Made by a program: the position numbers and the translations under genes. From Pseudomonadota bacterium (lineage in GTDB: Bacteria; Bdellovibrionota; UBA1018; CAIMNF01), in NCBI GenBank assembly GCA_027491115.1, contig JAIXWV010000041.1, positions 71,274-135,273 on the forward strand: a stretch of DNA of 64,000 nucleotides, read 5' to 3'. The notes under the pieces were generated by a model. That model made no database searches, was not told where the DNA came from, and worked only from the letters and a program-made list of their open reading frames with translations. Below, in pieces: positions 37,653-43,629 of the stretch. Position 1 is the stretch's first letter. The number at the start of each line of letters is the position of its first letter.

Positions 37653-37745
37653 CCGTGAAGTACTCTCCAGAACTCAGTGTGACCTGAATTTCCGCATCCC
37701 GATAGAAGCCATGATTTTGACACGCACCTTGTCATATGCGTGAGT

Positions 37746-37773
37746 TTGACAAGCCCTGAAACTTGTTGATAAG
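37746..37773 (+). promoter_or_regulatory. Candidate promoter of tRNA-Cys
   Basis: A perfect TTGACA and GATAAG are separated by 16 bp, ending about 23 nt before the tRNA 5' end. This would give a short 5' leader for RNase P to remove. Confidence 0.5.
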
Positions 37774-37796
37774 ACTTAGAAACCGGCTATTTCAGG

Positions 37797-37872
37797 GGTG
37801 ACGTACCAGAATGGCTAATGGCACGGTTTGCAAAACCGTTGTTTGTCGGTTCGATTCCGACCGTCACCTCCA
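37797..37872 (+). tRNA. tRNA-Cys (anticodon GCA)
   Basis: A cloverleaf can be drawn: acceptor GGTGACG pairs with CGTCACC, anticodon stem ACGGT/ACCGT closes loop TTGCAAA with anticodon GCA, and T stem GTCGG/CCGAC closes TTCGATT. The discriminator base is T, the known Cys identity base, and CCA is encoded. The last 20 bases of the gene recur 280 bp downstream (see repeat). Confidence 0.95.
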
Positions 37873-37873
37873 T
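37852..37873 (+). repeat. 22-bp direct repeat, copy 1 (tRNA-Cys 3' end)
   Basis: The T-loop to CCA end of tRNA-Cys plus one base, identical to 38132-38153. A duplicated tRNA 3' end is what site-specific integration into a tRNA leaves behind. Confidence 0.8.
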
Positions 37874-38131
37874 CTTTCCTCGTGGTTTTCCCATTTTAGT
37901 TCGTCTCGCCTCAACTCACCTCCCGCGGAGTACCGTTTGTACACCTTGGTCGATTCGTTTCGCTCGACTTCCTAAATTGGGAAACCCACGGGAAAGACCA
38001 TCAGGGGGACGGGAGGAATCGAAGCAAGCAGGCCGGCACCCTGAATGGGTGCTGAGCGAGCGTGACGCGAGCGAAAAGCCTGCGCGGTGGCCAGGCGGAG
38101 GAGTCCCGTGAGGGGACGACGAGCGCTTGGC
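37873..38131. other. Non-coding stretch between the two tRNA-tail repeats
   Basis: No convincing gene. It holds a short hairpin (GGCACCC, loop, GGGTGC at about 38035-38052) and GC-rich sequence. If the 22-bp repeats are attachment sites, this 258-bp segment is what remains of the element. No integrase is present. Confidence 0.4.
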
Positions 38132-38153
38132 CGATTCCGACCGTCACCTCCAT
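38132..38153 (+). repeat. 22-bp direct repeat, copy 2 (detached tRNA-Cys 3' end)
   Basis: An exact copy of bases 37852-37873, but not preceded by a D arm or anticodon arm, so it is not a functional tRNA. Confidence 0.8.
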
Positions 38154-38176
38154 TTCAACCTCCCCCACCACATTCA

Positions 38177-38284
38177 GTAAAACGAAGGGTCATCCCCTCA
38201 GGACAGCAGCCATCCTGGCTTTACACTTCCGTACGCCATCCATGGCTGAAGTGATTGTCCTGAATGAATGACCCTTTGTTTTAC
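38177..38284. repeat. 108-nt imperfect palindrome with 17-bp ends
   Basis: The ends GTAAAACGAAGGGTCAT (38177-38193) and ATGACCCTTTGTTTTAC (38268-38284) are inverted repeats with one mismatch. Inside them TCAGGACA (38198-38205) pairs with TGTCCTGA (38256-38263), and CAGCCAT (38207-38213) pairs with ATGGCTG (38242-38248). The whole can fold as one long hairpin with small bulges. It could be a MITE-like element or a structured RNA. No T-tract follows on the plus strand. Confidence 0.7.
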
Positions 38285-38286
38285 GG

Positions 38287-38365
38287 TCGGGGGTGCCGGT
38301 TGACGGGAAGGCAACGCTCTCCCCGCAACGAAGATTGAGTTGAAATGGAGGGGACGGTGCGAGGG
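38287..38365. repeat. 79-bp direct repeat, copy 1
   Basis: Matches 38534-38612 with one mismatch by eye. On the minus strand its 38342-38364 part resembles the tRNA-Cys tail (ACCGTCCCCTCCATTTCAA against ACCGTCACCTCCATTTCAA). Followed at 38463-38480 on the minus strand by a T-arm-like TTCGCAT loop. Confidence 0.8.
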
Positions 38366-38533
38366 AGCGGCCGCGATGGACGCGACCTCAAGGAGCGTTC
38401 AGCGCGGTCAGGCGCGCAGGACGCGCGACTCAGCGACCGAGGGGAGCCTACGCAGGGGGAGAGCGGGATGCGAACCCCCGAAGGAGGCGTCACCGCGATC
38501 ACCTACCCTATTCCTCACCCAACACTATAAGGA

Positions 38534-38612
38534 TCGGGGGTGCCGGTTGACGGGAAGGCAACGCTCTCCCCGCAACGAAAATTGAGTTGAAATGGAGGGG
38601 ACGGTGCGAGGG
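38534..38612. repeat. 79-bp direct repeat, copy 2
   Basis: Second copy of 38287-38365. After it the sequence jumps to a second shared block, CCGAAGGAGGCGTCACC, that also follows copy 1 after about 112 bp. Copy 2 therefore looks like a deletion derivative of a longer repeated unit. Confidence 0.8.
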
Positions 38613-38686
38613 GGCTGCCGAAGGAGGCGTCACCATGATCCGCCAACCCCTTGATCTTAATCAGCTCAAGCAGATCCACGAAAAAA

Positions 38687-38722
38687 GAGTACAGTGTACA
38701 CAATTTAGTGTACGGTGTACTC
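38687..38722. promoter_or_regulatory. 36-bp near-perfect palindromic operator abutting the pump start codon
   Basis: Of 18 symmetric positions 15 are complementary. The core is built from GTGTAC/GTACAC half-sites arranged twice. It ends at the base before ATG 38723, so a bound dimer (or two dimers) would block transcription start or elongation. The TetR gene at the end of this operon is the obvious candidate ligand, as in many pump operons. Confidence 0.7.
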
Positions 38723-41700
38723 ATGAAACCTGACTTTCTGCAAAAATACTCGCGTGTCATCCTTGTGGTGGGCTTCAGCCTCATGTTGTTCGGCCTTCTC
38801 AGTTACTTCGTCATGCCGAGCCAGGAAGATCCCACCATCCGGAACCGCAACGCCGTCGCCACCCTCGTCTACCCGGGAGCGGGTCCGGAAAAAATCGAGC
38901 GATTGGTCCTGCGTCCCATCGAAGACGCGCTCGGTTCGGTATCCGGTCTCAAGGAGGTCGAATCCGAGGCACGCCTGAATGTCGCCATCCTGAAACTCCG
39001 CTTGCGGGATGACATCAAAGAAATCAGTGAGACCTGGCGTGAGGTGGAGCGGGCTCTCGAGGAAGCCCAAGGCCAACTACCAAAAGAGGTGAACCGCCCC
39101 CTACTCGATTTCCATGTGCTGGATATCGAATCCGTAGTCATTGCGGTGACCGGCTCTGACAATCTGGTGGAGCTCCGGAATGCGTCGCTGACCCTGAAAG
39201 ACGCGCTCCTGAAGCTGCCGGATGTTGCCCGAGTGAAGCTCTTCGGAGATCCGGGTCCTGAAGTCGCCATCACCGTGAATCCGGAAGCCATGAACCGCCA
39301 CGGGATCAGCGCGGGACAACTGTATTCGGTTTTGAAATCGAACAACTCCGCAACTCCCACCGGATTCATCGTGGACCGGAACCAGCGGATCGTGCTTGAG
39401 CAGGATAACGACGCAAAAAGCCTCGATCAGCTGAAACGCTTGCGTTTTGAAACGGGCAAACTCGAGGAGGTGGAGCTGTCTTCCTTCGCCCGGGTCGACC
39501 TGACCACACAAAACCCGCCGCAAGCCGTCTTCCGGTGGAACGGACACCCTGCCATCGGACTTGGAATCGTCGCGAAAGAAGCCATCAACATTGTCGCCTT
39601 CGGTGACCGGATCCGAAACGATCTCTCCGCCATAGAAAACTTGATCAAACCCTTGAAAGTCGAAATGGTGGCGTTTCAACCGAAACGTACCGAGGATCGA
39701 CTACGGGACCTCTTGTGGAGTCTTTTCACCGGGATCGTACTCATTGTTGCTTTCCTGAGCTGGACCATGGGTGCCCGAACGGCTTTTGTGATCGGGTTCT
39801 CGGTACCCGCGATCAGTCTCATCGGACTATTCGCCTACTTTCTGATGGGAGGAGTGATCCATCAAATCTCCATCGCAGCCTTTGTGATCTCCATCGGGCA
39901 ATTCATCGACAACATCATCGTCATTGTCGACAGCATGAAGCGAAAAATGAATCGCGGGATCAGCCGCATCGAAGCCGCCGAAGAGGTCTCGAAGGAACTG
40001 CAGCGCCCGATGCTTTTTGCAACCCTCACGGGGATCTGTGCCTTCCTCCCCATGCTTGCCTCCGAAGGATCCACCGCGGACTTCGTGTTCTCCTTACCCT
40101 TGGTTGCAGTTCTGACCCTGATTGTGAGTTATTTCTTCGCGATCTTTTTCGCCCCACTCCTCGCCGCTCATACCCTGGAATCCGAGCAACGCGAGGTGAA
40201 ACTCCCCTGGGCTCAACTCGAAACACTCGTTTCATCGCTCGCAGTCGGTCCGTTCAAAAGGATCGGCCTTCTGGTCCTGTTGATCCTGGCCGTTTCCATT
40301 GCATCCTGGATTGGAGTGAAAAAAGAGTTTTTTCCCGAGTCCGATCGCAATGAGTTCCTCCTGACCTTCAATCTAAGCCCAGCATCCGACATCGTCGGAA
40401 CACTCGAAGTCTTGAAATTCGCTGAGGAACGCCTACGAGAACTGCCCGAGGTCACCCAGGTGGCCGCATTCGCGGGAGGAGGAATCCCGAGATTCTACTA
40501 CAATCTACCGAACCCGCTCCGGGCTCCCCAATCCGGCCAGCTCCTGGTCACCACCAAGAACTCAATGGACGTGAAGGGAGTCGGACTCAAAATGGAGGAA
40601 CTGCTGACACTCAAGTTCCCCCAGGTCAAGAATGTCGCGCACTTTCTCCAACAAGGCCCTCCGATCAATGCCAAGGTCGAAGTTCAAGTCTTCTCGGACT
40701 CGAAAGAGCGTAGACAGGCCTTGATTCAAAAGGTCGAGCAGCTGTTCCGGAGTGAAAAAGGGCTCCGGGGAATCCGAACCGATCTGGACGAGCCCCTCCA
40801 GGTGCTCCGCTTGATAATGAACGAAGAGAAAATGGCCCAAGCCGGTCTCAGCCGCGAGGAAGTGAACTTGGCCTTGGCCCTCCACAGCACGGGCGTGGAA
40901 GTGACCCAATTCCGATCGGGTCGGGAGCTCGTACCGGTCAGGCTGAAAACCCTCACCCATGTCCAGACGACCGAGAAGGAGCTCGGACGGGTGCTGGTGA
41001 AACGCGGACGGGATCGGGACTACCGGGCACAAGAACTGATTCGGTCCGATCGCGAGCCGGAATCACCCTTGATCCGCCGCCTGAACTCCGCCCCTTTTTC
41101 AAGGGCCCTTGCTGATCTGACGCCCGGGTACAGCTATGATCAAGCTCTCGGGACTCTTCAACCCAAACTCGCGGCGATTCCGCTCATCAACGGGGAAAGG
41201 CTGGCGTTTGCCGGTGATGCCAAGGGTGCCGGCGAAGCCAACGCATCGATCTTCCGCATCGTACCGATGGCGATGCTATTCCTGGTGGTCTTCCTTCTTC
41301 TTGAATTCCGGTCGATCCGGAAGGTCCTGATCGCCCTCACCGCTCTTCCGATCACAGTCCTAGGTATCTTTCCGGGTTTGTACCTCGGGAGAGCCCCGTT
41401 CGGATTCATGTCTCTGCTCGGACTCTTGGCATTGGTCGGGATCGCGGTGAACAACATCATCCTGTTGCTCGAAGCCATGGAAGACGAAGTCTCGATACAA
41501 GCTGCGATCGCCTCGAGATTCCGTGCGATCTTCTTGACGACCACGCTCACTCTCCTCGGATTGATCCCCCTGGCACTCGAGGACTCCTCACTCTGGCCTC
41601 CATTGGCCTGGACGATGATTTCAGGACTGATCACCGGCACCTTCGCAACTTTGGTTGTCGTACCGGCCCTGTACCGTCTTGTTTTCCGTTCCAAAACCAA

Positions 41701-43006
41701 GCTGACCCCTACGGGTGGTCTGAGTCTGATGCTCGCTCTCTTGCTCATTCACCTCACCCCTCCGGCACAAGCATCGGAAAAACCGTGGACGATCCAGGAA
41801 GTCATCGAGCGAGTCCATCAGACGCCGGAGTCGAGGGCATCCGCACTCGCTCCCCGATCGGCGCAGGAACTCAAAAAAGCGACCGACCACTCGGCTTTTC
41901 TACCTCGGCTCACCATGGGAGGTGAATTCTTCCAGCGGAACCGTGACCTCACCCTCACCACACCGTTCGGACCTCTCCTCACTGAGGAAAGTACCCGATA
42001 CCAGGCCCAAATCGAGTTGCGCCAACCCTTGTTCAACAAAATGAAAATGTGGAACGATCGTGACGCACAAGACAAACACCTCCAGTCGGAGATCGCTCAC
42101 GACACCCAGAACCAGAGGGACCTGGAGTTCGCTGCAGCCGCACAAAGCATCGAAATCCTCATTCTGGAAAGGCAGTCACGATTCATGACAGACTCGGCGG
42201 AGCTGTTGACCACCAGGCGTCGCAATGTCGCCCGGGCCATCGAGAAAGGACGTCTTGGAAGATCGGACCTCGTAAAACTCGATCTGGCCTTGGAACGGTT
42301 GAAACAACAACAAGAGGAAGTCGGAACACGGATCCGGAACCTCAAATCAGAACTCGCTGAGCGACTGGGCTTGGAAGGCTTGATCAGTCTCCAATCACCA
42401 CCCTTGGTGAGTCCAAACGGAATCCGGGACCTTGAGAAACTCGAAAGCCCTGCCCTGAAAGCAAAAGCCCTCGAAGCCGAAGCCGAATCGTTTGCTGCCC
42501 AAGCCCGAGGAACCCAAACATCCTTCATTCCAGCTGTCGACGGGTTTGCGCGGGCCCTGAGTGTTGATGGCAGGCGTTTGAACGAAAAGCTGTGGAGTGA
42601 GGTCGGACTCAGCATGAGCTGGGAGATCTTCGGAGGCGGCGCACGAGGTCCGCAAGGTCGAGCTTTGGCGCTCAAGGAGGAGTCACTGAGGCTTCAATCC
42701 TTGGGACTTCGTAGGACCCAGAAACTCGAGGAAGCCGAGGCGCTCCGCAACCTACGGGACCGGCTGAGCTGGAAAGCCCGTGTCGAGTCTCTCTACCCAC
42801 AGGCCAAGCTCGTTGCAGAAAACGAGGCCAGGCGGTATTTTGAAGGTCGAGGTAACTTGAACGACCTCGTCGAGGCGGACAGTGTTGAGTTGGAATTGGA
42901 GCGTGACAAAGACCTGAGTGCACTCGAGGCTTCAATGGCCTGTTATCGAGTGATGGCACTGAAGGGGCTCAAGGTGAACGAACGATGCAAAATCGAAGTC
43001 CAATGA
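38723..43006 (+). CDS. RND efflux pump fused in frame to a TolC-like outer-membrane factor
   Basis: A 1427-residue reading frame. Residues 1 to about 990 are a complete AcrB/HAE1-type RND transporter: first membrane helix, porter regions, a middle helix block with an intramembrane Asp pair region (IGQFIDNIIVIVDSM), second porter half and final helices. Residues about 998-1013 form a signal-peptide-like segment (LALLLIHLTPPAQA). The remaining 410 or so residues are a TolC/OEP helical-barrel protein. No stop codon separates them. An internal ATG at 41728, with GGTGG about ten bases before it, could start the channel separately. No periplasmic adaptor (HlyD/AcrA-type) gene is adjacent. Start 38723 sits directly behind the operator. 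Confidence 0.85.
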   Translation: MKPDFLQKYSRVILVVGFSLMLFGLLSYFVMPSQEDPTIRNRNAVATLVYPGAGPEKIERLVLRPIEDALGSVSGLKEVESEARLNVAILKLRLRDDIKEISETWREVERALEEAQGQLPKEVNRPLLDFHVLDIESVVIAVTGSDNLVELRNASLTLKDALLKLPDVARVKLFGDPGPEVAITVNPEAMNRHGISAGQLYSVLKSNNSATPTGFIVDRNQRIVLEQDNDAKSLDQLKRLRFETGKLEEVELSSFARVDLTTQNPPQAVFRWNGHPAIGLGIVAKEAINIVAFGDRIRNDLSAIENLIKPLKVEMVAFQPKRTEDRLRDLLWSLFTGIVLIVAFLSWTMGARTAFVIGFSVPAISLIGLFAYFLMGGVIHQISIAAFVISIGQFIDNIIVIVDSMKRKMNRGISRIEAAEEVSKELQRPMLFATLTGICAFLPMLASEGSTADFVFSLPLVAVLTLIVSYFFAIFFAPLLAAHTLESEQREVKLPWAQLETLVSSLAVGPFKRIGLLVLLILAVSIASWIGVKKEFFPESDRNEFLLTFNLSPASDIVGTLEVLKFAEERLRELPEVTQVAAFAGGGIPRFYYNLPNPLRAPQSGQLLVTTKNSMDVKGVGLKMEELLTLKFPQVKNVAHFLQQGPPINAKVEVQVFSDSKERRQALIQKVEQLFRSEKGLRGIRTDLDEPLQVLRLIMNEEKMAQAGLSREEVNLALALHSTGVEVTQFRSGRELVPVRLKTLTHVQTTEKELGRVLVKRGRDRDYRAQELIRSDREPESPLIRRLNSAPFSRALADLTPGYSYDQALGTLQPKLAAIPLINGERLAFAGDAKGAGEANASIFRIVPMAMLFLVVFLLLEFRSIRKVLIALTALPITVLGIFPGLYLGRAPFGFMSLLGLLALVGIAVNNIILLLEAMEDEVSIQAAIASRFRAIFLTTTLTLLGLIPLALEDSSLWPPLAWTMISGLITGTFATLVVVPALYRLVFRSKTKLTPTGGLSLMLALLLIHLTPPAQASEKPWTIQEVIERVHQTPESRASALAPRSAQELKKATDHSAFLPRLTMGGEFFQRNRDLTLTTPFGPLLTEESTRYQAQIELRQPLFNKMKMWNDRDAQDKHLQSEIAHDTQNQRDLEFAAAAQSIEILILERQSRFMTDSAELLTTRRRNVARAIEKGRLGRSDLVKLDLALERLKQQQEEVGTRIRNLKSELAERLGLEGLISLQSPPLVSPNGIRDLEKLESPALKAKALEAEAESFAAQARGTQTSFIPAVDGFARALSVDGRRLNEKLWSEVGLSMSWEIFGGGARGPQGRALALKEESLRLQSLGLRRTQKLEEAEALRNLRDRLSWKARVESLYPQAKLVAENEARRYFEGRGNLNDLVEADSVELELERDKDLSALEASMACYRVMALKGLKVNERCKIEVQ

Positions 43007-43629
43007 CCCTGAAAAAGAAAACTGGCGTTGCCCCCGAAAAAAGCCTGAAGGCCCGCTTGATGGCCTCAGCGATCCTGAGCCTGAAGAAACAGGGTGCTCA
43101 TGAGCTCTCGATGCGGACGATCGCGCGCAACGCCGGTTGCAGCACGATGGCCACCTACCGCCATTTTGAATCAAAGGAACACCTCCTGTCAGAGATCGCG
43201 TGTGAGGGATTTCGTGAACTGAGAGCCGAGATTGATGCAGGGGTGAAAGCCCATCCTGATGATCCCCTGAAACAACTCGAAGAAGTCGGTAACCGCTACA
43301 TTCGCCTTTCGTTGAAAAAACCCGAGCACCTGATCACCATGTTCGGGTCGGTCATCGAGGACTATCGTCGCTATGACCATCTGGTCCAGTGTTCGGAGAA
43401 TGCCTTCTTCGGTCTGGTGGAAATCATCAAAAGCTGTCAGGAAAAAGGCCTGATTCCGCCGGGAGACCCCGTTCGCAAGGCAGTCGCCTGCTGGTCAACG
43501 GTTCATGGATTCGCGATGCTTCTCGTGAACGGAAACCTGGACTGGCTCAATATCACTTTGAAAAACTCGGAAGAATACGGAAGCTTCGTGGCCCGTTCGG
43601 TGATCGGGGGATTATTGAGCAAAAATTGA
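42985..43629 (+). CDS. TetR-family transcriptional regulator
   Basis: A 214-residue regulator with an N-terminal TetR helix-turn-helix (TIARNAGCSTMATYRHFESKEHLLSEIA) and a helical ligand-binding domain with a TetR_C-like end (SVIGGLLSKN). It overlaps the pump gene. ATG 42985 has AAGGTG upstream; ATG 43003, which overlaps the pump stop as ATGA, is an alternative. It probably represses the pump operon through the palindrome at 38687-38722 and so autoregulates itself. Confidence 0.88.
   Translation: MQNRSPMTLKKKTGVAPEKSLKARLMASAILSLKKQGAHELSMRTIARNAGCSTMATYRHFESKEHLLSEIACEGFRELRAEIDAGVKAHPDDPLKQLEEVGNRYIRLSLKKPEHLITMFGSVIEDYRRYDHLVQCSENAFFGLVEIIKSCQEKGLIPPGDPVRKAVACWSTVHGFAMLLVNGNLDWLNITLKNSEEYGSFVARSVIGGLLSKN

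Follow-up and report, generated by a model that had tools for sequence, protein, structure and literature searches.

How can a pump of the inner membrane and a channel of the outer membrane be made from one uninterrupted gene? This question is raised by a locus in a stretch of 64,000 nucleotides (here called the window) from the genome of a Pseudomonadota bacterium placed by GTDB in the Bdellovibrionota (assembly GCA_027491115.1, contig JAIXWV010000041.1), in which a transporter of the resistance-nodulation-division (RND) type and a TolC-type outer-membrane factor (OMF) are joined in one gene. Throughout, G000 denotes the genome of the window, other G numbers the genomes of relatives, and L numbers the loci that were fetched. 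The original prediction, made from the letters of the DNA, had described a single frame of 1427 residues and offered two explanations: processing of a polyprotein at a signal-peptide-like segment, or separate translation from an internal ATG. The adaptor, the neighbouring tetR gene and the operator played no part in it.

The single frame was borne out by our analysis. Without interruption it extends from a TTG at 38651 to the stop at 43006, and the ATG at 38723, which yields 1427 amino acids (aa), was taken as the start because a tandem operator-like repeat ends 2 nt before it. Pfam domain ACR_tran spans residues 12-987 (404 bits against a cut-off of 28; positions 11-1020 of a profile of 1021), and domain OEP was found in the C-terminal part (54 bits against 22) in two stretches, the better one at residues 1248-1395. 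The RND part shows the pattern of 12 transmembrane segments in which segments 1 and 7 are each followed by a large periplasmic loop (hydropathy peaks at 12-30, from 330-348 to 514-532 and from 842-860 to 965-983, with another hydropathy setting giving 15 peaks), and a further peak lies at the junction (994-1012). The strings SIGQFIDN and VNNIILL, noticed in the RND sequence by inspection, may correspond to the proton-relay regions of transmembrane segments 4 and 10. No solved relative of the OMF half was found by sequence at E values up to 10, and its relatives were recognized by fold only: an AlphaFold2 (AF2) model of residues 955-1427, built on six alignment rows with a mean confidence score (pLDDT) of 78.6, matched TolC and OprM structures with E values of about 1e-15 to 1e-18 and a TM-score of about 0.7.

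The same fused frame is present in relatives. In G029, from another taxonomic family of the same order, it aligns with the window protein at 46% identity over 1424 columns; this was the only other full-length fused match among the matches listed for 58 genomes (the window's own and its relatives), and G029 also corresponds to JAIXQO010000009.1, a record under the name "Proteobacteria bacterium" from a genome assembled out of a pond metagenome. A two-row profile search of 368 genomes of the phylum found the protein family in at least seven (G000, G029, G269, G227, G285, G172 and G111), a lower bound, as two candidates per genome were scored. Five of the seven members are clean single frames, while that of G269 has a run of N within its OMF part and an end out of register, and that of G227 lies in two pieces at contig ends, one of which contains the whole junction. 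No relative of the fused protein was found on viral contigs.

On a tree of 96 RND rows the six fused members whose RND half is unbroken fall into a single clade (support 100), which splits into clade A (window, G029, G269) and clade B (G285, G172, G111), each with support 100; window and clade B proteins share 27-29% identity. The OMF halves of all seven members likewise form one clade (100/97) on a separate tree of 25 rows. Because RND halves and OMF halves each group as one clade, the trees place the fusion before the split of A and B, with a single origin within the family. Close relatives with two genes and a frame break, which would have spoken against the original prediction, were not found within the family, and the closest relatives without a fusion (G104 and G165) fall outside it and encode an ordinary adaptor directly upstream of the RND gene. 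Their OMF frames are longer than usual with 762 and 772 aa (L237:1402-3690 and L236:8453-10771) and carry an N-terminal extension; OEP was seen in a piece of the L237 frame only, and the L236 frame clusters with that frame on the OMF tree.

The junction itself carries the predicted signal-peptide-like segment. In the window protein four K/R residues lie within 15 residues ahead of the hydrophobic core, and AQA precedes the serine at the assigned cut, as in the general signal pattern. All 14 fused proteins examined, which have several origins, contain such a segment (those of G116, G117 and G368 were read separately from the automatically located ones). It ends 1-18 residues ahead of the OMF, and the 15 positions in front of it hold 1-7 K/R residues. 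The assigned -1 residue is Ala in 13 of the 14 junctions and Gly in that of G368. An A-x-A motif occurs at 8 of 14 junctions, against 10 of 160 when the positions close behind other hydrophobic segments of the same proteins are considered, and this contrast is still large even allowing for the choice of cut sites by eye, a procedure biased towards the junction. Junction sequences differ between members of the family, but the order of n-, h- and c-region is kept.

These sequence features make it probable that the gene encodes a polyprotein, in which an internal signal exports the OMF and signal peptidase I releases it, so that pump and channel arise from one frame. The gene would give one precursor chain, of which residues 1-988 would fold as a proton-driven RND transporter with both ends in the cytoplasm, as is expected for its family. 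The segment at about residues 990-1017 would then serve as an internal Sec signal, with its positive residues in the cytoplasm and its core across the membrane, delivering the TolC-type part to the periplasm. After a cut near A1017 and S1018 the OMF would move to the outer membrane, while the signal would stay behind and give the RND part a 13th transmembrane segment, and pump and channel would be produced in a 1:1 ratio.

The AF2 model also bears on whether the chain could function uncut. The last RND helix and a short signal helix precede the OMF fold with low confidence, and the OMF starts its first helix near residue 1024, some 13 residues after the core. The OMF helices that connect the outer-membrane strands with the periplasmic tip are 66-69 residues long; by this length the N-terminal end of the OMF lies roughly 60 A above that tip, and the periplasmic part of an RND transporter adds about 70 A (PMC3807786). 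A link of 13 residues is estimated to span at most about 45 A. By this estimate the uncut tether looks too short for an OMF seated in the outer membrane, which makes cutting likely.

Among the alternatives, a covalent fusion of both membranes, in which the uncut chain is the working form, would fit with both domains lying in one frame and would supply them in equal numbers, and it is compatible with the age of the fusion seen in the RND and OMF trees. However, the estimated link is far too short for it and the junctions look cuttable, and we regard it as improbable. Hardly more credible is internal initiation, by which the OMF would be translated as a second protein from the internal ATG or a nearby codon. 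An in-frame ATG does exist in the window, at 41729-41731 and not at 41728 as originally given, and in G029 an ATG stands where the core begins. Yet a start at 41729 lies inside the core and would leave a signal without a K/R-containing n-region, the GGGTGG upstream of it is a weak ribosome site, and no ATG, GTG or TTG stands ahead of the core in the window, G269 and G285, with the rest of the family being variable. Internal initiation also leaves unexplained why the frame has remained continuous across the A/B split. Of the two explanations in the original prediction, cutting at the signal-like segment is favoured by the 14 junctions and their A-x-A enrichment, and the separate start is disfavoured.

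In a draft assembly of 45 contigs one might suspect that a stop codon, for instance near 41710, was lost through a sequencing or assembly error. Because the G029 relative is fused likewise, the fusion can be attributed neither to a frame error nor to chance, and with the same fusion, unbroken at the junction, in other genomes too, an error is ruled out for practical purposes. Several points nevertheless weigh against the polyprotein explanation. The -3/-1 residues are weaker or non-canonical in G172 (MKA), G111 (LMA) and G368 (ING), the cut sites were assigned by eye with hydropathy as a crude test for a signal, and the span estimate depends on a model with low confidence at segment positions 34-50 and 54-64.

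If pump and channel are made together, the question arises which adaptor would connect them. No periplasmic adaptor gene, as would be expected next to the genes of a tripartite pump, lies beside the fusion in G000, G029, G269 or G227. In these four draft genomes the matches to the adaptor profile TIGR01730 adjoin ATP-binding cassette (ABC) or major facilitator superfamily (MFS) genes, with neighbours judged by eye and a divergent or distant adaptor possibly missed; one match (G000, contig C30) resembles a biotin carrier. In clade B genomes the fusion is closely preceded by a gene of about 200 codons (L169:884-1492, L170:909-1502, L171:5729-6355), whose product matches only the C-terminal part of TIGR01730 (length 322), namely positions 185-321 in G111 (E 2e-7), 249-321 in G172 (1e-5) and 217-321 in G285 (1.5e-4). 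A profile of these small proteins matched the C-termini of adaptors in the PDB (4l8j, E 2e-8; weakly the adaptor chain of TriABC and MexJ), and their AF2 model (pLDDT 71) was nearest to BesA, MexA and AcrA-type adaptors, with large root-mean-square deviations and domains fitting one by one at best. The small protein is a putative adaptor remnant that lacks the N-terminal part. The same type of protein was not found in G029, G269 and G227, and in G000 only at an E value of 0.08 inside a longer adaptor frame. With a full-length adaptor beside the nearest unfused sisters, a remnant in clade B and none adjacent in clade A, the gene content suggests that the adaptor was shortened or lost.

Separate OMF and RND genes were surveyed around 76 RND genes from the fetched loci, chosen by similarity to two query profiles and hence not a fair sample; the set includes the G047 fusion, whereas the fused rows were excluded, as were loci of other collections. 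Upstream neighbours on the same strand, present for 61 of the 76, carried OEP in 45 cases and an adaptor domain in two (G104 and G165), with flanks of 1.5 kb in which an adaptor beyond the OMF would be missed. Downstream neighbours (n = 38) included three with OEP and seven with TetR_N, and no adaptor family was among the 25 of 34 downstream families listed. Neither was an adaptor seen in five loci with wider flanks (G000 contigs C45, C33 and C16, and G029 contig C6 twice; two of the five are cut at a contig end). Two-gene operons of OMF and RND without an adjacent adaptor (e.g. L130:4269-8864, L250:4697-9081, L251:5064-9671) thus appear to be a common form in this phylum, and the fused gene may be an extreme case of a more widespread way of working without an adaptor. 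Cross-linking evidence that AcrB and TolC touch directly, without AcrA, has been reported (PMC4446572). That the processed polyprotein forms a two-part pump without an adaptor, with 1:1 synthesis allowing the channel to dock directly on the RND funnel, is a tentative proposal that we hold to be possible but less likely than not.

Long frames with RND and OEP also occur outside this family, in G039, G026, G038, G047 (cut at a contig end), G116, G117 and the Bacteroidales genome G368. Taking all RND fusions seen, the fused state requires five changes on the 96-row RND tree. A single origin for all of them was rejected when the 12 fused rows were held together (approximately unbiased (AU) test, p 7e-72); the tree was a quick one that contains some long branches, and the F4 proteins (G116 and G117) adjoin a long branch. 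In G072, which lies outside the family, the ATG of the OMF gene comes immediately after the TAG stop of the RND gene, in the same frame (L232:2950-3010). This layout likely resembles a precursor state, one codon away from fusion, and indicates that little is needed to fuse RND and OMF. In a plasmid search only a Parabacteroides record covered 80% of the query; there adaptor, RND and TolC are three genes, the TolC gene starting nine bases after the end of the RND gene and in frame, with the adaptor gene separate. Lipoprotein-like frames adjoin the F2-type RND-OMF genes (L033:8861-10255, L025:9243-11219, L035:2126-3520, L232:1-464) and share by eye a similar start with Cys, an acidic stretch and a W/Y-[KR]RE-[KQ]-L-like run; the three that were scanned gave no Pfam match. 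They are possible partners of these genes.

The surroundings of the fused gene point to local regulation (Table 1). Sites of the GTACNNNGTAC type occur only twice in the window, both in the tandem repeat, against 1.15 expected per shuffled window. G029 has two palindromes with the same spacing, similar tandem sites precede the first gene in six genomes (window, G029, G227, G269, G285 and G172), and G111 has a weaker similar stretch by eye. A gene with TetR_C_33 adjoins the fusion in G000, G029, G269, G227, G285 and G111, and G172 has a similar, unscanned frame. The encoded protein is a probable repressor of the fused-gene operon that would bind the tandem operator just before the start codon. 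In G111 the fusion is followed immediately by a small multidrug resistance (SMR) gene (L171:1049-1387), which hints at toxic small molecules as cargo. Upstream of the operon, about 1 kb (37653-38650) is without an evident gene except for a tRNA (37797-37869).

Table 1. Features at the fused locus, in window positions.
Feature	Position	Strand	Remarks
Tandem operator-like repeat	38689..38720	+	Two GTACNNNGTAC palindromes, 21 bp apart
Fused RND transporter / OMF gene	38723..43006	+	1427 aa; from open reading frame, Pfam and alignments of relatives
RND transporter part, complete	38723..41686	+	Residues 1-988; 12 hydrophobic segments, two large periplasmic loops
Internal signal-peptide-like segment	41690..41773	+	Residues 990-1017; K991, K993; core ~1000-1010; c-region PPAQA; assigned cut between A1017 and S1018; sequence features only
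Internal in-frame ATG (M1003)	41729..41731	+	Inside the hydrophobic core; judged not a start
OMF part	41774..43003	+	Residues 1018-1427; OEP, TolC fold predicted
TetR-family regulator gene	42985..43629	+	TetR_N and TetR_C_33; overlaps 3' end of fused gene

We found no report of RND-OMF fusions in the open-access literature, judged by title or beginning of the abstract. Fusions of this kind exist elsewhere, with one CzcA-type example here, and whether the pump runs without an adaptor is the more interesting question. If the explanation given above is true, motor and channel made as one conserved precursor, which arose several times and always with a signal-like joint, would be a clear case of bacterial polyprotein processing between two membranes. 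The stepwise shrinkage of the adaptor makes an old question testable, namely whether RND and TolC-type proteins can work by direct contact. For the clade B small protein, which models best on BesA and MexA, the hairpin-less adaptor BesA of Borrelia burgdorferi offers a comparison; according to PMC3807786, BesA keeps the lipoyl, barrel and membrane-proximal domains, whereas the clade B proteins match the C-terminal part of adaptors only.

Closest among solved structures to the RND half are TriC (6vej) and MexK of Pseudomonas aeruginosa, with full-length matches (E 2.6e-95 and 1.3e-88). In the TriC and MexK systems the channel is a separate protein, and TriA/TriB and MexJ serve as adaptors. The window protein scores far below the cut-off of every NCBIfam RND model, and membership in the CusA/CzcA heavy-metal RND family (TIGR00914) was rejected with 193 bits against a cut-off of 701. 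The Bacteroidales fusion in locus L240 (G368) also combines RND and OEP in one frame of 1463 aa with a hydrophobic junction, but it is a true CzcA member (1156 bits against the same cut-off) and stands separately on the RND tree. Long fused proteins of the CzcA type are common in Bacteroidota, L240 being the sole one in this analysis. The OMF half shares with TolC and OprM the OEP domain and the predicted TolC fold, and differs in that it has no start of its own and its signal is internal to the fusion. For comparison, the cytochrome b/c1 gene fbcH of Bradyrhizobium encodes a membrane polyprotein that is cut at an internal signal, but both of its products remain in one inner-membrane complex. 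Textbook RND pumps need three separately made proteins.

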